64,000 nt of DNA from Leptolyngbya boryana PCC 6306. GTDB taxonomy: Bacteria > Cyanobacteriota > Cyanobacteriia > Leptolyngbyales > Leptolyngbyaceae. The notes beneath the pieces are model-generated. The model saw only the letters and a program-made list of their open reading frames with translations. It did no database searches and was not told the origin of the DNA. The stretch spans positions 886,577 to 950,576 of the forward strand of contig NZ_KB731324.1 in assembly GCF_000353285.1 (NCBI RefSeq), in the 5' to 3' direction. Positions 18,153 through 36,177 of this stretch are shown here, piece after piece. How positions within the stretch are numbered: position 1 is the stretch's first letter; the number at the start of each line of letters is the position of its first letter. A program made the position numbers and the translations under genes.

Positions 18153-20075
18153 ATGTCAAAACGAGGAAAGCCCACCTCCTCACCTCATCGTCCCCCAACG
18201 CCCAACCCACGGAGATCGAAACTGCCGTTGATGGTGGAACAAGCCTATGAACGTGTTTTTGACTCTTCTGCAACCGCACAAGCATTCGGGCGATTTGCGG
18301 ATCATTGGGTAGAACGATTCCGGACGGCTCAAGCAAAACCCAGCGCACGTCGCCTCTTTATCGTCTGGGCAATTCTCGTCGGTGCAACAGGACTATTAGC
18401 CTTAAATCTCGTTCGACTCCAGGTGTTTCAGGCTCCTGATTTGTTGGAGCAAGCGCGATCGCAACAAACGACGTTTTTACGCCCCTTTGTCCCCCGTCGC
18501 CCGATTAGCGATCGCAATGGCAATACGTTAGCGATCGATCGTCCGGTTTATACCCTCTACGCACACCCGATCGCCTTTAAAGCTCCGAAAACGGAAATTG
18601 CCACCCAACTCTCTAGTGTTCTCGGAACGACCCCGGGCGAATTATTGCAACGGTTTAATTCAGCAGAAAGTGGGGTTCGCGTCGAATATGCGATTTCTGA
18701 AGCGGCAGCCGATCGCATTCAAGGGATGCAAATCGACGGATTAGAACTCGCTCAACAGCAGCAGCGCCTTTATCCACAGCAAAATCTCACAGCCGATGTC
18801 GTTGGGTATTTGGATATCGATCGCATTGGACAGGCAGGTGTTGAATATACGCATAGTAATCTTTTAGAGCGATCGGTAAAATCGGTGCGATTGAGCCGGA
18901 CAGGGGCTGGTGTGATGATGCCAGATCGGATTCCGGGCGGATTTTTACAGTCAGATAATTTGCATTTGCAATTAACGATTGATAGCCGAATTCAACGCGC
19001 TGCGCTTGTAGCCCTGCAACCGCAGTTGAAGAAATTCAAGGCAAAGCGTGGGGTCGTGATTGTGATGGATGCCAGAGATGGAGGGATTCGGGCGTTAGTG
19101 TCTGATCCGTCTTATGACCCGAATGAATTCTACAAAGCAAAAGTTGAGCAGTTTAAGAACTGGGCATTGACGGATTTGTATGAGCCAGGATCAACGTTTA
19201 AGCCGTTGAATGTTGCGATCGCGCTAGAAGCAGGTGCGATCCAGCCGAATCAAGTGATCAACGATGAAGGGGCAACCCAAATTGACGGATGGCCGATTCA
19301 GAATTTTGACTACTCCAGCGCAGGGGCACGCGGACCCAGCACGATTACTCAGATTTTGGAGCATTCGAGCAATGTTGGCATGGTGAGAATTGTGCAGCAA
19401 ATGCCTCGCCCCACCTATTACGCTTGGTTGGAAAAAATTGGTTTAGGAAAACCGACCGGAATTGATTTGCCATTTGAAACAGCAGGACAACTTAAAGATC
19501 AGAAAACTTTCTCTGAATCTGCGGTTGATGCGGCAACCAGTTCTTTTGGTCAAGGATTTTCGCTCACCGCTATGCAGCTTGTGCAACAACAAGCCATTCT
19601 TGCCAGCGGCGGCAAGTTGTTAACGCCGCATGTGGTGCAAGGGTTATTTGATGAGAATGGACAACCTTACTGGCGGGCAACCTTGCCTGAGCCGAAACAA
19701 GTCTTTTCGCCGCAGACCACGCAAACCGTACTGCGAATGATGGAATCGGTTGTGCAAAACGGAACCGGGAAAGCCGCGCAAATTCCGAATTATCGGATTG
19801 GTGGGAAGACGGGAACGGCGCAGAAGGCAGGTCCGAATGGTGGATATATTGAAGGCGCGAAGATTACAAGTTTTGTGAGTATTTTTCCGATCGATGCGCC
19901 GCGTTATGTAGTAGCAGCAGTCATTGATGAGCCAAAAGGAGAAGATGCGTTTGGTTCGACAGTGGCAGCCCCGATCGTGAAAGCGGTAATGGAGGCGTTA
20001 ATTACAGCGGATAAGATTCCTCCAAGTCAGCCGGATGTGCCTGCTCCGAGTGTTTCACCGAGTCCGAATCCTTAA
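18153..20075 (+). CDS. ftsI: Class B penicillin-binding protein (septal transpeptidase, FtsI/PBP3-like)
   Basis: This 640-residue bitopic protein has a membrane helix after a basic cytoplasmic segment (FIVWAILVGATGLLALNLV), a PBP dimerisation domain starting at RPFVPRRPISDRNGNTLAID, and a transpeptidase domain with the three active-site motifs: STFK (Ser347, Lys350), SSN (405-407) and KTG (552-554). It cross-links peptidoglycan at the septum. The long N-terminal cytoplasmic part (about 60 residues) and a Pro-rich tail are usual in cyanobacteria. It starts 2 bp after the FtsL-like gene, so the two are co-transcribed. I see no terminator of standard form after it. Confidence 0.94.
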   Translation: MSKRGKPTSSPHRPPTPNPRRSKLPLMVEQAYERVFDSSATAQAFGRFADHWVERFRTAQAKPSARRLFIVWAILVGATGLLALNLVRLQVFQAPDLLEQARSQQTTFLRPFVPRRPISDRNGNTLAIDRPVYTLYAHPIAFKAPKTEIATQLSSVLGTTPGELLQRFNSAESGVRVEYAISEAAADRIQGMQIDGLELAQQQQRLYPQQNLTADVVGYLDIDRIGQAGVEYTHSNLLERSVKSVRLSRTGAGVMMPDRIPGGFLQSDNLHLQLTIDSRIQRAALVALQPQLKKFKAKRGVVIVMDARDGGIRALVSDPSYDPNEFYKAKVEQFKNWALTDLYEPGSTFKPLNVAIALEAGAIQPNQVINDEGATQIDGWPIQNFDYSSAGARGPSTITQILEHSSNVGMVRIVQQMPRPTYYAWLEKIGLGKPTGIDLPFETAGQLKDQKTFSESAVDAATSSFGQGFSLTAMQLVQQQAILASGGKLLTPHVVQGLFDENGQPYWRATLPEPKQVFSPQTTQTVLRMMESVVQNGTGKAAQIPNYRIGGKTGTAQKAGPNGGYIEGAKITSFVSIFPIDAPRYVVAAVIDEPKGEDAFGSTVAAPIVKAVMEALITADKIPPSQPDVPAPSVSPSPNP

Positions 20076-20816
20076 GTGTGAGTGACAAGTTTTATTGGAT
20101 GGATTGCACTAAGTGTTGCAGTTCGATATCAAATTCAGTTTGAAACCGCGATCGCTAATATCAAAATCGCGATCGTTCTAGGTTACGAAAGGACTTTTTG
20201 GATTGCGATCGACTTCACGATCGTCCTTTGCAGATCTTTCCACAAATTCGACTGGACTTATTGCATTTAGTGTGTTTGATCGTTTTAAAGTTTGTTTTCA
20301 AGAGCATCAGCGATTACTGATGCTTGATCCGGTTAAGCAAGAGGATGGGCAGAGATCGTAGTTTGTTTGATGATCGATGGGTATTGAAAGCAGTCTACAT
20401 TTTGAAATAAATGGTTCGACTTTGAGACGGAACGATCGCACTTTGAGATGAAACGATCGTACTTTGAGATAGAAATTTTCATCTTTGAGATAGAACGAAC
20501 ACTTTGTGAAGCGGAGCTACCGCACTTCAGATTTGAAACTTTTATCTCCGAGACTGAACGATCGCACTTTGAGATGGAATGATCGCACTTCAACATATAA
20601 GTTTCAGTCTTTGAGATGGAATGATCGCACTTCAGATTTGAAACTTTTATCTTTGAGTCGAAACCTCGGGACTCAGAGAGCGATCGTTGGATGATTTCTA
20701 TAGAATAACGAGATCGCATTAAGGAAAACTGGGGTTTGAAGGACGTTCGTTCTAAAAAATATTACGTTTGTAAGAAATCATGCACTGAATGGATGTAGTG
20801 ATTTTCGTGCCTCTTG
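20076..20816. other. Long intergenic region before the HEAT/NACHT gene
   Basis: These 741 bp contain two HIP1 sites exactly 21 bp apart (20148, 20169), an eight-pair hairpin AGCATCAG/CTGATGCT (20303-20324) without a T-run, and the 21-bp repeat array at 20410-20680. ORFs on both strands across the array are a by-product of its 21-nt (7-codon) period. Confidence 0.7.
20410..20680 (+). repeat. Array A: about 12 units of a degenerate 21-bp repeat
   Basis: The core TTTGAG/TTCAGA recurs at 20421, 20442, 20463, 20484, (20505), 20526, 20547, 20568, 20589, 20610, 20631 and 20652, which is an exact 21-bp phase throughout. A typical unit is CGATCGCACTTTGAGATGG plus AA. Units fall into subtypes (TTTGAGATGG and TTCAGATTTG) that alternate in the right half. 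There are no spacers of unrelated sequence, so it is not a CRISPR. Because 21 is a multiple of three, both strands show 7-residue periodic ORFs. Confidence 0.85.
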
Positions 20817-23800
20817 ATGTTGCGGCTTATGCATAGAAAAATCGATCGCTTCCTATCTCGGTTTCGGTTCCATGTTCATCGTTCCGCCCCCCTCATTTGC
20901 CTCCTCGCCCTGCTCTTCTCGCTCTCCAGTTGGGTTGCAGTGGGAACTGCAACAGAGAAACCGAAAGAAAAACTCAAGGAATGGCACATTAATGGGATTC
21001 TGGCAGCTTTAGAGGATAGCTATCCTGGTGTGAAAGAGAAAGCTTTTGAAGCATTTAGTGGGCTTAATGCTGAGAATTTGAAACTGTTTCCTAAGCAGTC
21101 AGAAGAGATAAGGAAAAGAGCGATCGATATCTTCAAAAACGGAAAGGAAGACCCTGATGTTCGCGGCAACGCGGCTGAGGCATTGGGAAGTGCAGGCAAA
21201 ACTAACGACACAGCAGTGCAAGTCCTTACTGATGTCCTCAAAAACAGCGAGGAACGCTTCTTGATTCGCAGCGCTGCGGCTGAGGCATTGGGAAATGCAG
21301 GTAAAACCAACGATACAGCGGTGCAAGTCCTTACCGATGTCTTCAAAAACAGAAAGGAAGACTCTGATGTTCGCGGTTGCGTGGCTGAGGCATTAGTCAA
21401 TGCAGGCAAAGCTGATGACACGGTGGTGCAATTCCTCGTTGACATCCTCGGAAACAGCGAGGAAAACTTCTTAATTCGCAGTCGCGCGGCTGAGGCATTA
21501 GTCAATGCAGGCAAAGCTGATGACACGGTGGTGCAATTCCTCACTGACATCCTCAGAAACAGCGAGGCAAACTTCTTGATTCGTAGCAACGCGGCTAGAG
21601 GATTGGGGAATGTAGGAAAAACTAACAACACGGCGGTACAAGTCTTCACTGATTTCCTCAAAAACGGCAAGGAAGACATCTTGATTCGCATCAACGCGGT
21701 TGAGGGATTGGGGAATGCAGGCAAAACTAACAACACGGCGGTACAAGTCCTCACCGATATTCTCAAAAACGGCAAGGAAGACTCCCTGATTCGCCGCCCT
21801 GTAGCTAAGGCATTAATCAATGCAGGTAAAACAAATGATACGGTGGCGCAAGTCCTCACTGACATCCTCAAAAACAGCAAGGAGGACTCCAAGATTCGCA
21901 TTGGCGCAGCTTCAGCATTGATTGATGCAGGGAAATCGGAAGAACTCGCAGTACAAGTCCTCACCGACATCTTCAAAAACAGCAAGGAGGACTCCAAGAT
22001 TCGCATCGACGCAGTTTTGGCATTGGGAAATGCAGGCAAAACGAATAGTACGGTGGTGCAAGTCCTCACCGACATTCTCAAAAACAGCAAGGAAGACTCC
22101 GATCTTCGCATCGGCGCAGCTTGGGCATTGATTGATGCAGGGAAATCAGAAGAACTTGCAGAGCAAGTCCTCACCGACATTCTCAAAAACAGCAAGGAAG
22201 ACTCCGATCTTCGCATCGGCGCAGTTTTGGGATTAAGAAAGCTTAGACCGTTAGCATTAAGCGAAATATTTGTTTTCATCGAGCAAACTCACGATCGACA
22301 TTCCAGAGATTTTGACAAGGCACGTTTCGCTGCTTACTTCTATAGCGGAGACAGTAGTGTGACTAAGACATTACTGAAATGGATCGGTTCTCCCAAACGA
22401 GACAGCATTCCGACTAAACTCGACCATGATGAAGCCAAGAAAACCATGGAGGTCTTTGCAACAGCCTGGAAGCCGAGTGAAGGGTTCACAGAGTCTCGCG
22501 CTGAACTCGCCAGAGCGATCGCAACTGTCATCAGTCAAGGAAACTGGAATCTCAGAGACGCTTTGCTCCTCGAACAACACTACAAAAATCTCAAGGATGC
22601 CAACTTTACTGAAGCCAATACTGTCAAAACCGCGATCGACTCCCTCACCCTCTGGAAATACCTCAATCAAGCCAGAAACATCATTGCTGCTCATCTCCTC
22701 TTTTGGGCTGCGCTCATCTTCGCTTATCCCAAATACACATGGGTTCAAGCCATTTTCTTCTGGAATCCCTGGGTACGTAAAATCGGCGGAGTCGGCTACG
22801 TCGGCTTTCTCCTCGCTTGGGTTCCATTCCTCCGTCGCAAACTCTTTGAACCCTTCAAAGTCTCCTTACTTGCCGATGCCCGCCTCAGCAACTTCGATCC
22901 CAAAGCCTATTTTCCCGAATCGAACGTGAATCTCGTCGGCTCCCGTCACTCTGCTCCCCTCAACAAAGCGATTCCCAGAATTCAAGGACAAATCATTCTC
23001 GAAGGCAGTTCCGGCTTAGGCAAATCCCTCTTCTTGCGTCATTTAGCCCAACAGAGCGATCGAATCGTCGTCTTTCTCCCTGCCCGTAAATGTGAAAACG
23101 GCGTAATCGAAGCTATCCAAGCCAAACTGCACGGACAAGCCCAAGATGCAGAATTCCTCAAAAATCTGATTTATAGCGGCGCGATCGACATCTGCATCGA
23201 CGGCTTAAACGAAGTCAGTGCCGACACCCGCGCCAAAATCAGCCAATTTGTCGAAAGCTACTTTAAAGGCAACATCATTTTGACCACCCAACCGATCGAA
23301 TGGATCGCCCCCACCACCGCCAAAATCTACGAACTCCAACCGCTCGAAAACACTCAAATCGAAACCTTCTTACTTTCAAGACAAGCGATCGTCGCTCCCA
23401 ACAATGAATCCGACTACATCAAATCCTGTCGCGAGTACCTCACCCAAGCACTCGACTCTCAGCAATTTTCTGAAGAACTTGCCGCAACGCAACGGATTCT
23501 TTCTAATCCGATGGACTTAACGATCGTGGCGCAGATGATTGCTTTAGGAAAAACGCCCGATCTGTTTGGATTACAGAAGCAGCAGTATGAGTTGATGGCG
23601 GAGGATTACCGCGATCGCTGGAACCAAGACTTCCCCCTAAAGAAATTTTCAGAAGCCCTTTACCAACTTCGGCTCAACGACGAGAAAGCTATTCCTGCCG
23701 ATGAATTTCTCCATGAATTGCTCAGCATGGAAGACGAAAAATACAAGATGGTCATCAGTCGGCAATGGAAAGATCCTCAAGGTGAAGCCAAACAAGAATG

Positions 23801-24083
23801 GTCATGCCGCCACGACAAGATCATGGAATTCTTCATCGTGCAAACCTTCTTAGGCGATACTGAAACCGCCCAAAATCGTTTAATTGATCACATGGGAGAT
23901 TCAAGATTTCGAGGCGTTTACTTCTTACTAGCCACCTTGCTTCCGCTAGAAGAAGCCGCAGATCTACGCGAAAAACTGATTCTTTATGCCGCACAAAGCA
24001 AAGACCATACCGTCAGCGACATCTTCGTGCAACTGTTTTATACCCGTGCCACTTTAACCGCCGCTGCCGCCACTTCAACCTAG
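20817..24083 (+). CDS. HEAT-repeat protein with membrane segments and NACHT-like NTPase domain
   Basis: This 1088-residue protein (ATG 20817; ATG 20829 also possible) starts with a basic stretch and a hydrophobic segment (SAPLICLLALLFSLSSWVAV, 23-42), like a signal anchor. About ten near-identical 35-residue HEAT units follow (about 119-475; unit core AGKTNDTAVQVLTDVLKN). Two hydrophobic segments (about 622-640 and 657-675) lead into a STAND/NACHT-like NTPase with Walker A GSSGLGKSLFL (about 730) and Walker B-like IDICIDGLNEV (about 790). A helical C-terminal part contains SCRHDKIMEFFI. STAND NTPases act as ligand-triggered switches, often in defence or signalling. The membrane topology is unclear. 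A Uma2 gene follows in the same direction after 61 bp. Confidence 0.82.
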   Translation: MLRLMHRKIDRFLSRFRFHVHRSAPLICLLALLFSLSSWVAVGTATEKPKEKLKEWHINGILAALEDSYPGVKEKAFEAFSGLNAENLKLFPKQSEEIRKRAIDIFKNGKEDPDVRGNAAEALGSAGKTNDTAVQVLTDVLKNSEERFLIRSAAAEALGNAGKTNDTAVQVLTDVFKNRKEDSDVRGCVAEALVNAGKADDTVVQFLVDILGNSEENFLIRSRAAEALVNAGKADDTVVQFLTDILRNSEANFLIRSNAARGLGNVGKTNNTAVQVFTDFLKNGKEDILIRINAVEGLGNAGKTNNTAVQVLTDILKNGKEDSLIRRPVAKALINAGKTNDTVAQVLTDILKNSKEDSKIRIGAASALIDAGKSEELAVQVLTDIFKNSKEDSKIRIDAVLALGNAGKTNSTVVQVLTDILKNSKEDSDLRIGAAWALIDAGKSEELAEQVLTDILKNSKEDSDLRIGAVLGLRKLRPLALSEIFVFIEQTHDRHSRDFDKARFAAYFYSGDSSVTKTLLKWIGSPKRDSIPTKLDHDEAKKTMEVFATAWKPSEGFTESRAELARAIATVISQGNWNLRDALLLEQHYKNLKDANFTEANTVKTAIDSLTLWKYLNQARNIIAAHLLFWAALIFAYPKYTWVQAIFFWNPWVRKIGGVGYVGFLLAWVPFLRRKLFEPFKVSLLADARLSNFDPKAYFPESNVNLVGSRHSAPLNKAIPRIQGQIILEGSSGLGKSLFLRHLAQQSDRIVVFLPARKCENGVIEAIQAKLHGQAQDAEFLKNLIYSGAIDICIDGLNEVSADTRAKISQFVESYFKGNIILTTQPIEWIAPTTAKIYELQPLENTQIETFLLSRQAIVAPNNESDYIKSCREYLTQALDSQQFSEELAATQRILSNPMDLTIVAQMIALGKTPDLFGLQKQQYELMAEDYRDRWNQDFPLKKFSEALYQLRLNDEKAIPADEFLHELLSMEDEKYKMVISRQWKDPQGEAKQEWSCRHDKIMEFFIVQTFLGDTETAQNRLIDHMGDSRFRGVYFLLATLLPLEEAADLREKLILYAAQSKDHTVSDIFVQLFYTRATLTAAAATST
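21170..22240 (+). repeat. 105-bp tandem repeats inside the HEAT/NACHT gene
   Basis: About ten in-frame 105-bp units, each coding for one 35-residue HEAT unit, with long stretches of near-identity (for example GCAAGTCCTCACCGACAT shared between several). The low divergence indicates recent unit duplication or gene conversion. Confidence 0.85.
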
Positions 24084-24144
24084 CGAGTAATGCGATCAAG
24101 TACGATGAGAGAAACCTCTGCTTGCACCAAAGTTGGACTACCAT

Positions 24145-24732
24145 ATGGAACTCATCCTTCCCCTCAAGCTCGACCTCAATCAAGTTCATCTCACCGATGA
24201 GCAATTTTACCAACTCTGCATCACGAATCCTGAATGGAACATTGAGCGCAGTGCAAAAGGAGCCTTAATTGTCATGACCCCTGTCGGCGGAGAAAGCGGA
24301 AAACGCGAAGCAAATTACATCATTGATTTAGGCAATTGGAATCGCCGAACTGAACTCGGAGAGGTCTTTAGTTCTTCCACAATTTTCAAACTTCCAAAAG
24401 GAGGGAGCCGATCTCCTGATGCAGCGTGGGTCGAACGCTCTCGATGGCAAGCTCTCACACCCGAACAACGCAAAAAATTTCCCCCGATCGCGCCTGATTT
24501 TGTCATCGAACTGCGCTCTGCAACCGATAATCTGGCAGATTTACAAGAAAAGATGCAGGAATATCTAGACAGTGGCGTACGATTGGGCTGGTTACTCAAT
24601 CCGCAAGATCAACAAGTTGAAATTTATCGGCAAGGACAGGAGAAAGAAGTGCGATCGCTGCCGATTCTACTCTCAGGTGAAACCGTTTTACCTGAATTTG
24701 AACTCCAAGTCGATCGATTCACAGACGAGTAA
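24145..24732 (+). CDS. Uma2 family (PD-(D/E)XK nuclease-like) protein, paralogue 1
   Basis: This 195-residue protein has Uma2 landmarks: GALIVMTPVGGESGKREANY, SPDAAWVERSRWQALT, APDFVIELRSATDNL and SGVRLGWLLNPQDQQVEIY. The presumed metal ligands are the Asp of SPDAAW and the Glu of VIELRS; the last ligand may be the Lys of LQEKMQEYL. It is very close to the Uma2 gene at 33495, including the sequence around the start (CTTGCACCAA upstream of both). The ATG at 24145 is preferred over an in-frame TTG at 24133. It follows the HEAT/NACHT gene closely and may be co-transcribed with it. The function is unproven. Confidence 0.88.
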   Translation: MELILPLKLDLNQVHLTDEQFYQLCITNPEWNIERSAKGALIVMTPVGGESGKREANYIIDLGNWNRRTELGEVFSSSTIFKLPKGGSRSPDAAWVERSRWQALTPEQRKKFPPIAPDFVIELRSATDNLADLQEKMQEYLDSGVRLGWLLNPQDQQVEIYRQGQEKEVRSLPILLSGETVLPEFELQVDRFTDE

Positions 24733-24811
24733 ATTGAATTTACTCGCAGTCCACTGCGACATTGACGACGGGATCACTCAGAAACAAGCCCCCAACGATA
24801 GCACAAATCCC

Positions 24812-24945
24812 CCTTTGATACAAAACACTGCCACTCAAAACAAAAACGCTTCGACCCAAAGCGTGATCGCACCCACTTCAAGCCCGATCAGTCTCACTTC
24901 AAATCGAAACGTTCTCACTCAAAACGCGATCGCTTACTCTTCCGG
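24812..24945 (-). repeat. Array B: about 5 units of the 21-bp repeat, inverted relative to array A
   Basis: The core ACTCAAA/ACTTCAA occurs at 24833, 24854, 24875, 24896 and 24917, again exactly 21 bp apart, with weaker units on each side. Read on the minus strand the units match array A: GCGTTTTGAGTGAGAACGT here against CACTTTGAGATGGAACGAT there. The array fills most of the gap between the Uma2 stop and the ndhM stop and just reaches into the ndhM 3' end. Confidence 0.75.
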
Positions 24946-25272
24946 TTTTACCTGGGGAAGACCCATGCTGTAGTTCAATACGCGGCTTTCTAGGTTGTAG
25001 GAGATTTCGCCTTTTTGAAGCAGCGATCGCACTAAATGCTCTAAATCTGACCCAATTCGGCGCAAATTGTAGTCGGTTAGCGATTCGCCGCTGTAAGATT
25101 CAACCAGTTCATCAAACTTGCTGTAGATCTTTTGCAGTGCATCTTGATTCCACAGCAGCTCATTGTCGGGATCAACGTCTAGTGTCAGAACCTTATCGCT
25201 CTCAACTAGCTCATTATTTTGCACTTCTGCCGTAAAAATATGAATGTGGCGAGTTGTGGATTTGAGTAACAT
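24934..25272 (-). CDS. ndhM: NAD(P)H-quinone oxidoreductase subunit M
   Basis: This 112-residue peripheral subunit is a cyanobacterial/chloroplast-specific part of the NDH-1 hydrophilic arm that helps bind ferredoxin. It is recognised from MLLKSTTRHIHIFTAEVQNN, LTLDVDPDNELLW, YNLRRIGSDLEHLVRSLLQ and the C-terminal LNYSMGLP. The start is placed at 25272, where AGG precedes the ATG by 7 nt and where known NdhM proteins begin; an ORF extends 16 codons further upstream. It is divergent from the phosphatase gene at 25391. Confidence 0.95.
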   Translation of the reverse strand: MLLKSTTRHIHIFTAEVQNNELVESDKVLTLDVDPDNELLWNQDALQKIYSKFDELVESYSGESLTDYNLRRIGSDLEHLVRSLLQKGEISYNLESRVLNYSMGLPQVKPEE

Positions 25273-25390
25273 AGGCTGACCTAAGATTCGTATAACCTGC
25301 TTTAAGCATTGTAAATGCACTTCCTGCGAAAAATCTTCATCGCCTCAAATCTGTCCATCGATCTTCCTCGCCCCTAAGAATTGATTTCTC

Positions 25391-30334: not shown

Positions 30335-33300
30335 TTATTCTGAGGCGCTTTGCAGTTGTTGAAGAATCGATCGTGTCATCGGATGATCGGAGAGTTCGGA
30401 GGTTCGACCCTTTTGCAGCACTTGAACTAAGAAATTGATGAATCCTCGCCAAGTTTGTTGAGTGTAAGGATGCGCTTCTCCTAGTCGATTGTAGAAGATG
30501 GAGATCGCTTGTCGATACAATGGCTCTGCTTCTGCATAGCGTTCTAGTGCAGTGTAAAGTCCTGCAAGATTATATAAATCGATTGCAAAATCCGGGTGTT
30601 CTTGTCCTAATGCCCGCTCGTCAATTTGCAACGCTTGAATGTAAAGTGGTTCGGCTTCCTCATAGCGCCCTTGCGAATAGTACAGTAATGCCAAATTGTT
30701 CAAACTCTGAGCCACATCGGGATGCGATTCTCCCAAACGCGATCGTCTTAATTCCAAGGCTTGAATGTAAAGCGGTTCGGCTTCCTCATAGCGCCCTTGC
30801 AATCGATACGATTCTGCCAAATTGTTCAAACTCTGAGCCACATCGGGATGCGATTCTCCCAAACGCGATCGTCTTAATTCCAAAGCTTGAATGTAAAGCG
30901 GTTCGGCTTCCTCATACCGTCCTTGCAAATAGTACAATCCTGCCAAATTGCTCAAACTCGTTGCCACATTGGGATGTGATTCTCCCAAGAGTGATCGAGT
31001 TAATTCCAACGCTTGAGTCAAGAGGGGTTCGGCTTGCTCATAGCGCCCTTGCAACCGATACAATCCTGCCAAATTGTTCAAACTCTGAGCCACATCGGGA
31101 TGCGACTCCCCTAATAGCGAGCGATATAATTCCAACGCTTGAGTGAAGAGGGGTTCGGCTTGCTCATAGCACCCTTGCGACTCGTACAATGCTGCCAGAT
31201 TGTTCAAACTCTGAGCCACATCGGGATGCAATTCCCCGAGGAGCAATCGAGTTAATTCCAACGCTTGAGTGAAGAGGAGTTCGGCTTGCCCATAGCGTCC
31301 TTGCAACCGATACAATCCTGCCAAATTGTTCAAACTCTGAGCCACATCGGGATGCGATTCTCCCAAACGCGATCGTCTTAATTCCAAAGCTTGAATGTAG
31401 AGCGGTTCCGCAGACTCGTACCGTCCTTGTGACGCATAAAGTGCTGCCAAATTGTTCAGACTTGTCGCCACATGGGGATGTTGCTCTCCTAACAAAGATT
31501 GCGCAACCGTTAACCCTGCAGCAACCCAAGGCTCAGCATCGGCATAAAGTCCTTGCCCTTGATAAAACCAACTAATTCCAGTGAATACCCACGTCAGATC
31601 ATCATCGTCTGGAATCCCGCATTCTTCGCGACTTTTCAACTTCATCAAGTCTTCTGCCACCGCTTGCAGATGTGGAATTGCTGGAGTAACCAAGCCAATG
31701 ACCTCTAGCGTCGGAGCTTGAGGAATTTCTTTCGCAATTCCAATCATCACCATCGCCACCGCCGTTGTAACCCATCGCTGTTCCTCCTGCGTCATCCTAC
31801 TTCTAAAAAACTCTCGCAAGAGCGGATGGATTTGATACTGGTTTTCTCCCGATCGCTGAAGCAAACTCAACTCAACTAACCTTCTCCGCCCTCGCCGCCA
31901 CGCCTTTGGCTCCAGCAACAAACACGCCGTTTCCTCTCGACAAAATTCCACCGCTCGATCGACCAACTCCCACGCGATCGCTGCTTTCCCAAACGTCCCC
32001 AACAGCATCGCCAACTGTCGTTCTGCCGCGTTCAGCCTCTCCCAACTCAACTCAAAGACTGTTTCGATCTGACTAATGCCATCCTGCTTCAACCGCTCTG
32101 TTTTTAGCTCCGCAAGCAGTTCCGCGATCGACAAATCCGGCTCGACTTTCAGAAACTTCCCGACTAATTTGATCCCCAGTGGCAAATCTCCCACCCATTC
32201 ACACAGTTCAGCAGCTTGTATTTGCTCTCGCTCAAACCGACGCTCATCTTTAACTGTTTCATATAGCAATCGATACGCCTGCAACGGCAGCAAAGTCTCG
32301 ATCGACAACACCGAAACCGACTCGCTTTCAATCCGCGATCGCGTCGTCAGCAGCACCTTAAACCGTTCCTCAACAGGCGGTAAAAAACTCTCAATATCCG
32401 CATAATCCAGCACATTATCAAACACCACCAGACTCGACTCCGTTGGAAACTGCCGCCAACACCAAGCCACCAACTCACTCGAATCAGAAAACTCCGGCAA
32501 CTGCAACCCCAAACACGATCGAGCAAACCCCAAAATCTGCGCCCCAATCTCCTGTTGAGCATTCACCCAACACACCGCCCCCAAATAAATCCCCGCATTG
32601 CGATACCGCATTGCATACTGCAACACCAATTCCGTCTTGCCAATCCCTCCCATCCCCGACACCGCAAAAATCGCCAACCGACTTTCATCTTGCACACGAT
32701 CGTGAATCTCTCGCAGTTCCACATCCCGCCCCACAAATGTCTCCGTCTGCGATCGCGGTAAATTACTCGGTGTATGTTTTCCCCGTTCCCCACCGATGGG
32801 AACCTCAGACTTTTTTCCGCCCACAATCTCCCGCGCCCGTTGTGCCACCCGCAGCAACACCGCATCCTGCTCATGCTCCGGCAAACCGATCAGCGGCTTC
32901 TCCATCCCATTCGCCGCCTGAAAATCATTCAGCGATCGCACTTTTTCTTCACCCTGAGCATCCGAGTAATAAAACTCAGCCGATCCCAAATCAAACGGAC
33001 TCAACAAAATCGGCAGTAATATCGTCTGTCCAGCATCAACCTGCTGAAAAATCTTCGGCATCTCTTTCTCGCAAATGTAATCCGACGCAAAAAACGAAGG
33101 ACTCATTAACGCGATCGCCACCCTTGCCGAACTCAATGCCGTATGAATCTCGTCATCCCACTGCGTTCCTAGATCGATCTTCTGATCACACCAAATCCTT
33201 GCCTTTTTCTGACGTTGCAATGGCTTCAAATGATCGAGGAGTCGATCCAGCGATCGGCGTTTGAAGGCATCATCTTGATTGTCTTTGCGCGCATAGCAAA

Positions 33301-34082: not shown

Positions 34083-34434
34083 CCCACCCCCAATCCCCCA
34101 AATCTGCAACAGTCGAATCACGATCGCCCCTCTCGCCTCATAACGGGCCACCTTTTCGATCGAGCAAATCGCGCTTAGAGTCCCCACTCCCCACTTCCCC
34201 ACTCCCCACTGATCGCACCAGATCTCCGTAGAATCCGGGCATCGTGAATCAGAACTGCGCCGTCAAAAAAGTTCGTGAGTATAATTCCAAACACGTAGTA
34301 CGACCGGAATCGAAGATTTTACTCGAAAAACCGATCGTGAAACCCACGATCGCGGCAAAAAATCGCCTACTGAAAATCGATCCCATTGTTCTGGTTTCCA
34401 GAAAGTCCACATATCCGCCCTTGCACTCAAAGCT
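34083..34434. other. Intergenic region with CCCCACT repeat
   Basis: These 352 bp hold a C-rich repeat (34181-34210) and no supported gene. A plus-strand ORF through 34244-34434 runs into the next gene in the wrong frame and has no family resemblance. The promoter of the gene at 34435 must lie here but was not identified. Confidence 0.55.
34181..34210. repeat. Dispersed CCCCACT-type repeat, copy 1 (no hairpin partner)
   Basis: Tandem CCCCACT/CCCCACTT units. This is the same element as at 36156, 41743 and 44481, but here without the G-rich left arm. Confidence 0.7.
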
Positions 34435-36124: not shown

Positions 36125-36177
36125 GAGTAGGGAGTAGGAAGCTACTAAAGGAACACCCCCACTCCCCACTCCCCACT
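36125..36177. repeat. Dispersed G/C-skewed hairpin repeat, copy 2
   Basis: The left arm GAGTAGGGAGTAGG (36125-36138) can pair with the right arm CCCCACTCCCCACTCCCCAC (36157-36176). It lies after the TIGR04376 gene and before the Anbu gene. Confidence 0.75.

Follow-up and report, generated by a model that had tools for sequence, protein, structure and literature searches.

Degenerate 21-bp arrays in Leptolyngbya boryana PCC 6306 and its relatives: a possible phased lattice of twofold-symmetric DNA sites

Plasmid centromere and iteron arrays, built from the sites of ParR, TubR, Omega or RepA, are tandem runs of short, twofold-symmetric sites whose spacing strictly follows the helix and which become coated by a dimeric protein. 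Ribbon-helix-helix and similar proteins coat arrays of the centromere type. Filamentous cyanobacteria carry intergenic tandem or dispersed repeats of other kinds, namely the STRR heptamers, the LTRR and the small dispersed repeats, and bacterial noncoding tandem repeats in general are usually taken as neutral or as slippage switches. The subject of this study is an intergenic array of degenerate 21-bp units, termed array 1, together with arrays of the same type in other genomes. Array 1 was found in a 64,000-nucleotide stretch of the cyanobacterium Leptolyngbya boryana PCC 6306 (contig NZ_KB731324.1, positions 886,577 to 950,576; hereafter the window), which sits on the main 6.26-Mb contig of a 7.26-Mb genome. 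Like the plasmid arrays, these are phased tandem sites with a dyad, as judged from the family profile, the dyad of the window array alone not being significant. They differ from the plasmid arrays in their many copies in some genomes and in the strong drift of their units; the arrays of the window lie on the 6.26-Mb contig, a constant partner gene was not seen, and one array used as a query gave no match among the plasmids and phages searched. The intergenic position and the filamentous cyanobacterial hosts recall the STRR, LTRR and small dispersed repeats. Unlike those repeats, however, the arrays have a period of 21, a dyad and unequal constraint on their columns, lack a 7-bp subperiod and occur in Acidobacteriota. 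Short CCCCACT heptamer repeats of the STRR type are also present in the window, at 34181-34210 and 36157-36177.

Two further published systems can be compared. The intergenic tandem arrays of Borgs change fast; their units are perfect copies and come in several lengths, about 20 nucleotides in one array (PMC9879509). The present arrays are likewise intergenic, tandem and fast-changing, but their units drift while the length stays fixed. In Thiohalocapsa, tandem stem-loop repeats resembling miniature inverted-repeat transposable elements lie beside conflict-gene loci with diversity-generating retroelements and match the terminal repeats of insertion sequences (PMC10907252). Both sets are tandem, form stem-loops and adjoin conflict genes in a multicellular bacterium. 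They differ in that single units of the present type are not in excess outside arrays, with four strong hits in a 1.2-Mb sample versus two in reversed sequence. Among the titles and abstract openings listed in searches of openly licensed PubMed Central papers there was no description of such a 21-bp array type, and none was found in the passages searched of two conflict-system papers (PMC7159879 and PMC10907252).

Array 1 lies between a penicillin-binding-protein gene and a HEAT-repeat gene (Table 1). It has twelve units, the first starting at 20421 and the last at 20652 in steps of exactly 21 bp, and its final base is 20672. Over 20410-20680 the identity at lag 21 is 0.512, compared with a mean of 0.257 (standard deviation 0.030, maximum 0.376) in 1000 dinucleotide-preserving shuffles of the same range; the top value over lags 3-129 in 300 shuffles was 0.433. 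The twelve-unit array with a 21-bp phase that an earlier note on this DNA had described is thus borne out, the observed autocorrelation standing above every shuffle. Identity is also high at lags 42, 63, 105 and 126 (0.53-0.61), from which higher-order units follow, and Tandem Repeats Finder reports periods of 21, 42 and 63. An indel-tolerant profile alignment places a single 2-base deletion within the wider range 20398-20690, and at one point two consecutive core spacings are 20 and 22. The unit at 20505-20525 belongs partly to a separate 27-bp dispersed repeat, GAACACTTTGTGAAGCGGAGCTACCGC, which occurs once in the window and twice in the orthologous array of G004, a member of the same genus, with the phase intact there too; exact or near copies of it are scattered over several members of the genus and family. 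The units stand head to tail and share one profile, and because unrelated spacers are absent the array is not a CRISPR, as the earlier note had held. Its statement that many units are HIP1-like shrinks to five of the twelve (two with an exact CGATCGC and three more with CGATCGT or TGATCGC), and the alternation of two subtypes that it saw in the right half is not strict, the order from 20526 onwards being B, A, A, B, A, B, A-like.

The shared unit, which reads about RTGCGATCGTTCCTGTTTSAA on the minus strand, forms arrays in the family, in the Nostocales and in an Acidobacteriota metagenome-assembled genome (MAG). R1, a three-unit model built from 32 stretches of 11 arrays, has a match at E <= 0.01 in 27 of the 42 family genomes, own genome included, with 0 to 124 matches per genome. 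At E <= 1e-4 it identifies 39 of the 291 genomes of the class, 22 of which lie outside the family, one of these by a single marginal match. The search of related genomes that the earlier note had proposed accordingly gave further copies, and these keep the phase. In a family set of 46 arrays from 41 loci, picked by array hits and not by neighbours, the spacing is a multiple of 21 for 410 of the 462 pairs of successive core hits that lie at most 130 bp apart; the corresponding figures are 130/136 for 13 acidobacterial arrays and 61/67 for nine Calothrix arrays, all three being upper estimates. Many of the off-phase spacings are of 20, 22 or 43, or fall at array edges. Indel-tolerant cyclic alignment on the better-scoring strand leaves 27 of the 46 arrays without an indel. 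Within the trio L109, L119 and L139, and within the pair formed by the window and G004, every clear difference in array size amounts to whole units, and the flanks carry assorted indels; a lenient pairwise gap count was too noisy and was not used for indels.

A less biased test of phase than the counting of core spacings is a collection scan in which the gap is free. One genome from each of 84,980 species was scanned for two copies of the 13-bp core separated by any gap of 0 to 30, a design that admits periods of 13-43. Twenty-two stretches resulted, fifteen of them cyanobacterial (Nostoc, Anabaena, Calothrix, Fortiea, Trichormus, Stenomitos, Tildeniella and one uncultured), and all 20 cyanobacterial matches have a period of 21 or 42. 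The seven other stretches include phased arrays from the Acidobacteriota MAG (one stretch, period 21) and from Neomarinimicrobiota MAG sequence (two stretches, periods 21 and 42), and since the latter arrays are alike their two contigs may be one locus. The stretches from Oligoflexia (19), Planctomycetaceae (19), Bacilli (27, five matches) and Bacteroidales (33) were rejected as arrays of this type. The Acidobacteriota MAG holds 88 R1 matches at E <= 0.001 across 14 contigs, and its first array locus (L217) has 66% GC, so that one stray contig fails to explain the acidobacterial arrays; as a MAG, the genome can be chimeric. The arrays of four Nostocales genomes (L221, L227, L230 and L232) have similar first units and, on sequence likeness, may be orthologous or recently transferred.

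Constraint is distributed unequally over the columns of the unit. Columns 6 and 11 hold one base in 95-97% of 530 units, and column 19 is near even. Among 67 paired units from six array pairs, called orthologous from their neighbouring genes, the mismatch is 0.04 at column 6 and 0.01 at column 11, lies in the range 0.09-0.18 at columns 17, 18, 20 and 21, and rises to 0.72 at column 7 and 0.60 at column 19; it falls with column information (Spearman -0.94, a partly circular figure). The profile overlap does not itself produce the wide gap that separates near-fixed from near-random columns, and neutral drift does not predict a range from 1-4% at the firmest two columns to 60-72% at the freest two. 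The acidobacterial units, which were found with the cyanobacterial profile, have the same firm columns A6, A7, T10, T11, T17 and A21 at 0.90-0.98, and their consensus differs at other columns. The resulting skeleton is GAANNTTC ... TTYNRAR on a 21-bp lattice. Selection on phase, which the earlier note had suggested, is well supported because relatives keep the phase while the freest columns are near saturation.

These rates bear directly on the view that the arrays are a neutral or selfish minisatellite, in which slippage and unequal exchange copy whole units, phase being kept as a by-product, and transfer disperses the result. The whole-unit size changes between related arrays, the high identity at lags 42, 63, 105 and 126 and the very uneven number of model matches per genome all agree with such an origin. 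A neutral satellite should, however, drift evenly over its columns; in these arrays some columns have almost saturated and others hardly change, and the fixed ones recur in the acidobacterial MAG, at an array locus of 66% GC. Nor does the minisatellite account for the length of 21 bp, and we regard it as rather unlikely.

The unit is also symmetrical. Self-complementarity of the profile around column 8.5 is 0.51, a value matched by 0 of 2000 column permutations, and the acidobacterial units reach 0.58 against a null maximum of 0.52 in 3000 column permutations. Thirty-six arrays that contain nine or more good units were also taken singly; having been phased on one profile, they all have their best centre at 8.5, and 30 of them reach p <= 0.05. 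Given a period of 21 and one dyad, a second dyad follows 10.5 bp further on, and dyads thus recur about once per helix turn. In the top 120 column pairs by mutual information, the strongest coupling lies within columns 1-9 or 18-20, and among the most coupled pairs only 18-20 looks complementary across a dyad, a pattern expected if half-sites are read separately. Same-site complementarity is 0.513 around centre 19, versus 0.480 for a within-array control, and is hardly raised around 8.5 (0.444 versus 0.434).

Together, these features are best read as a selected lattice in the DNA, made of sites with twofold symmetry whose dyads come once per helix turn, that would serve a putative dimeric protein, a reading to which we give no better than an even chance. 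Observed directly are the lattice with its phase and dyad, the uneven constraint on columns, the lack of a surplus of lone units in the sample, the placement between genes and the broad distribution; the protein, the facing of the sites and the effect on genes nearby are inferred. Because a dyad axis recurs every 10.5 bp, about one helix turn, along the 21-bp lattice, neighbouring sites would all lie on one face of the helix, and selection would act on that facing. A putative dimeric DNA-binding protein would then coat the lattice cooperatively, and the coated lattice would mark or silence the adjoining region, which in cyanobacteria would often be the edge of a set of accessory immunity-type genes. 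The earlier note had offered two helical turns or seven codons as the basis of the phase; the former is the better branch, helped by the dyad, and the latter is unlikely.

Seven codons would make the arrays coding sequence for heptapeptide repeats. The window array is indeed open on the minus strand (a 128-amino-acid open reading frame, ORF), its frame is the commonest among 43 arrays (open in 11), and the third-position-like columns vary most (p 0.10). Stops over six frames number 21.4, versus 30.6 after permutation, yet wholly open frames are fewer as well (0.74 versus 1.20 per array after column permutation). Any open frame at all is found in just 22 of the 43 arrays, and the acidobacterial excess of open frames (2.8 versus 1.6 permuted) is scattered over all six frames. 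The 128-amino-acid ORF has no Pfam match, and its frame is closed in most relatives. Heptad coding was rejected, the best frame staying open in only 11 of 43 members; coding by the arrays is unlikely, and a heptapeptide-repeat sequence is scarcely credible.

Repeated hairpins could instead act in a transcribed RNA, either regulatory or antitoxin-like. Folding of the 46 arrays is indeed more favourable than that of dinucleotide-shuffled sequence (mean z -3.7 and -3.3; window array -3.5 and -3.8), and some neighbours are of toxin-antitoxin type. Permutation of unit order nevertheless leaves the mean energy unchanged (mean z 0.14 and -0.12; window array itself -2.2 and -1.2), so the folding is explained by the unit palindrome, and a giant long hairpin was rejected on the same ground in spite of the good folding of the window array. 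There is little complementary coupling beyond columns 18-20, and the orientation of arrays to genes varies. In a comparison with Type III antitoxins, several neighbours are of toxin type, and neither their family nor their orientation is constant. An Rfam covariance-model search of 19800-21200 gave no match up to E 1, and promoter-like (one) and terminator-like (zero) sites in 20000-20900 do not exceed chance. An RNA element is accordingly judged improbable.

A further rival is intrinsically curved DNA, acting in helical phase without a specific protein. A/T power at 10.5 bp exceeds that at the neighbouring periods of 9.5-11.5, AA/TT power at 10.5 bp is high too, and a wedge model gives 0.909 for the arrays against 0.924 for column-permuted sequence, or slightly more bending. 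The difference is small, however, the power at 3.5 and 5.25 bp exceeds that at 10.5 bp, and all but one of nine other 21-bp arrays are without strong A/T power at 10.5 bp. The intrinsic bend was rejected for its small effect, and curvature as the basis of the arrays is very improbable.

The length of 21 bp reaches beyond this unit. A census of noncoding or ambiguous arrays of at least 120 bp and with a period above 9, in 1.6 Mb sampled from five genomes, gave 18 arrays, with 12 at period 21, four at 15 and the others at 41 and 69; the own-genome part includes the array 1 locus by design. Nine of the 12 arrays at period 21 do not fit the unit profile of array 1, and arrays may therefore arise afresh, as a minisatellite would. 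Five of the 12 are ORF-covered and possibly coding, array 1 itself being classed as coding in the census because of a chance ORF. Other exact 21-bp arrays with unrelated units occur in G037 (taken as Tildeniella nuda U140) and G012 (Table 1), and a further array at L170:19346-19566 resembles that of L157. An origin of the length in three heptamers was rejected, since among nine other arrays a clear 7-bp subperiod occurs in L153 only, the one that also has strong 10.5-bp A/T power; in the array 1 family the identity at lag 7 is 0.275, compared with 0.59 at lag 21, and the subperiod is absent. Tandem arrays of 7 bp are frequent in the samples of G037 and G012 (L146-L165 versus L051-L070), and none of at least 80 bp was found in 400 kb of the own genome.

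A scan of the whole window turned up a second array, which the earlier note had missed, 4 kb from array 1. Of six R1 matches at E <= 0.05 in the own genome, five are arrays 1 and 2 and one is weak and lies elsewhere (E 0.026); the R1 search found no third array of the array 1 type there. A 126-bp tandem repeat (42 amino acids, TPR-like by appearance) at 30629-31480 possibly marks another gene of the NB-ARC-TPR type, and no R1 match adjoins it.

Table 1. Features of the array 1 locus, and unrelated 21-bp arrays of two relatives
Feature	Position	Strand	Remarks
Penicillin-binding protein (transpeptidase) gene, left block border	18153..20075	+	Domain search; G004 comparison
Array 1, 12 units x 21 bp, exact phase	20421..20672	-	Intergenic; minus-strand unit GTGCGATCGTTCCATCTCAAA and variants
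27-bp dispersed repeat GAACACTTTGTGAAGCGGAGCTACCGC	20497..20523	+	Inside array 1; array phase unbroken
HEAT-repeat gene	20814..24083	+	Starts 124 bp past array range; weak AAA_16 match (E 0.009)
Uma2-family gene (PF05685)	24133..24732	+	Between HEAT gene and array 2
Array 2, ~6 units x 21 bp, same profile and strand as array 1	about 24807..24942	-	3' of Uma2 gene; intergenic
Small gene, right block border	24934..25320	-	Conserved in 8/8 genus genomes searched
Block: array 1, HEAT, Uma2, most of array 2	20076..24928	.	Absent from matching G004 site
Unrelated 21-bp arrays	L147:1801-2208, L153:12921-13487, L154:16636-16978, L157:13716-13997		G037/G012
Unrelated 21-bp arrays	L160:2595-2962, L182:1305-1506, L187:14844-15116, L192:17855-18132		G037/G012

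The two arrays belong to a block that is present here and missing from the matching site of G004, the nearest genus member at the penicillin-binding-protein gene (82% versus 77-80%). There, this gene and the counterpart of the small gene are adjacent, about 122 bp apart. Homology with G004 stops at the stop codon (about 20074) and picks up again at 24929, within the final unit of array 2; the 4.85 kb between these borders were therefore gained here or lost in G004. The called frame of the small gene extends a few bases into array 2. The gap in G004, between converging genes, holds a short array-like element whose best three units score 30 bits, and this element contains a 20-bp perfect inverted repeat (L239:2319-2372) with arms resembling the array unit; from its sequence it may simply be a bidirectional terminator, or it may hint at the origin of the units. 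In the other six genus members no array lies within 1.5 kb of a match to either border gene. The HEAT gene, which BLAST groups with NACHT-type neighbours of arrays, has a homologue in G004, with about 90% identity in two matching pieces of 397 and 1421 bp. That homologue and an orthologous array are found together on a different contig, and some 0.7 kb, a PemK gene included, stands between them. The middle of the HEAT gene (21111-22636, most of its 105-bp, 35-amino-acid repeats) has no counterpart in that homologue, where the two matching pieces are 14 bp apart.

Immunity-type domains recur beside the arrays of the family. Among 90 proteins next to the 46 arrays, Pfam matches include TIR_2 (5), NACHT (5), DUF433 (5), Peptidase_C14 (3) and Uma2 (3), the domains being chosen post hoc and orthologous arrays counted separately. 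In a control of 85 proteins beside 46 random gaps, themselves taken from 90 gaps, none of the five is among the 25 families listed; since the families listed reach down to two members, each has at most two there. PADLOC tallies could not serve as a second control, since kinase models take up the control list. In G037, genes adjoining the 15 arrays fetched carry five of the 14 TIR_2 and two of the 14 NACHT matches (hypergeometric 7e-9 and 0.003, with 5500 genes assumed). Eight arrays of G039 (taken as Stenomitos frigidus ULC18) adjoin 0 of 36 TIR_2 and 1 of 46 NACHT matches, and one broken NACHT-like stretch, counted within the same 46, lies nearby also. At further loci from elsewhere, which were found by DNA search, 20 of 48 listed neighbour proteins were scanned. 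They include EAD4-NB-ARC-TPR (2), NB-ARC-TPR (1), TIR-NB-ARC (1), PIN (1), CHAT with a death-like domain (1) and nSTAND3 below its cut-off (1); the remainder comprise PfkB, a phosphoribosyltransferase, EF-hand, cytochrome bd, TPR (2), WD40 and a metallo-beta-lactamase-fold protein, and five of the 20 gave no domain match. Calothrix has one NB-ARC-TPR and one NACHT-N-terminal domain (15 of 17 proteins scanned, among 25 of 54 families listed). Among the 25 of 51 families listed for 25 neighbours in the acidobacterium, no such domain occurs and ordinary enzymes are found. The expectation of the earlier note that copies flank accessory genes thus holds in several cyanobacteria, is weaker in Stenomitos and was not seen in the acidobacterium; the link to TIR, NACHT, NB-ARC and toxin-antitoxin genes is one that holds often, and not for every array.

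Such neighbours, namely TIR, NACHT, DUF433, caspase and Uma2, would also suit a site of insertion or recombination, at which like arrays at many loci let accessory blocks enter, leave and exchange at array edges. The missing 4.85-kb block of G004 with its short array-like element, the restart of homology inside array 2 and the HEAT gene with its array elsewhere, a PemK gene between them, point the same way. Against this, there is one clear empty site only, the left border at 20075 is about 340 bp away from array 1, and the 20-bp inverted repeat of G004 could belong to an ordinary terminator. An integrase or transposase is not among the 25 neighbour families listed, and the acidobacterial families listed are ordinary enzymes. 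This explanation is unlikely.

Several observations count against the lattice of sites for a dimeric protein. At least one indel is present in 19 of the 46 arrays, several cancelling out, and array finding favours unbroken phase, so that the spacing fractions are somewhat inflated. The window array by itself lacks a significant dyad (p 0.17), and the 10.5-bp dyad spacing follows automatically from the period and is not independent evidence. The column-rate correlation is partly circular, because the profile includes the arrays under comparison, and the orthology of the six pairs is taken from neighbouring genes, L115 and L124 being just 57% identical. Among the unrelated arrays, one of nine has strong 10.5-bp A/T power, and of five families tested for a dyad one (L160) reaches p 0.04. 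There is no gene that stands beside every array, no partition or initiator gene is among the neighbour families listed, and no binding protein was identified. Finally, 0 to 124 model matches per genome within one family is odd for a housekeeping site. The neutral satellite, the insertion or recombination site and the transcribed element are the rivals that deserve serious weight. A broader proposal, which is possible but doubtful, is that these arrays form an undescribed cross-phylum class of chromosomal element, palindromic lattices with a dyad per helix turn and a putative dimeric coat. In multicellular cyanobacteria such lattices would mark immunity-type loci and border their gain or loss, and where a genome holds several unrelated 21-bp families, each would be the lattice of a different protein, all of these proteins being alike in kind.

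A 21-bp spacing kept over phylum-level distances, with the free positions randomised, is strong sequence evidence for function, and limited literature searches did not find that function named. At least two relatives carry unrelated 21-bp families, and the rule may therefore be the length and not the sequence. The array provides a defined DNA bait for finding a candidate binding protein. In several cyanobacteria, moreover, its link to NLR-like and toxin-antitoxin loci could bear on the regulation or exchange of these genes.
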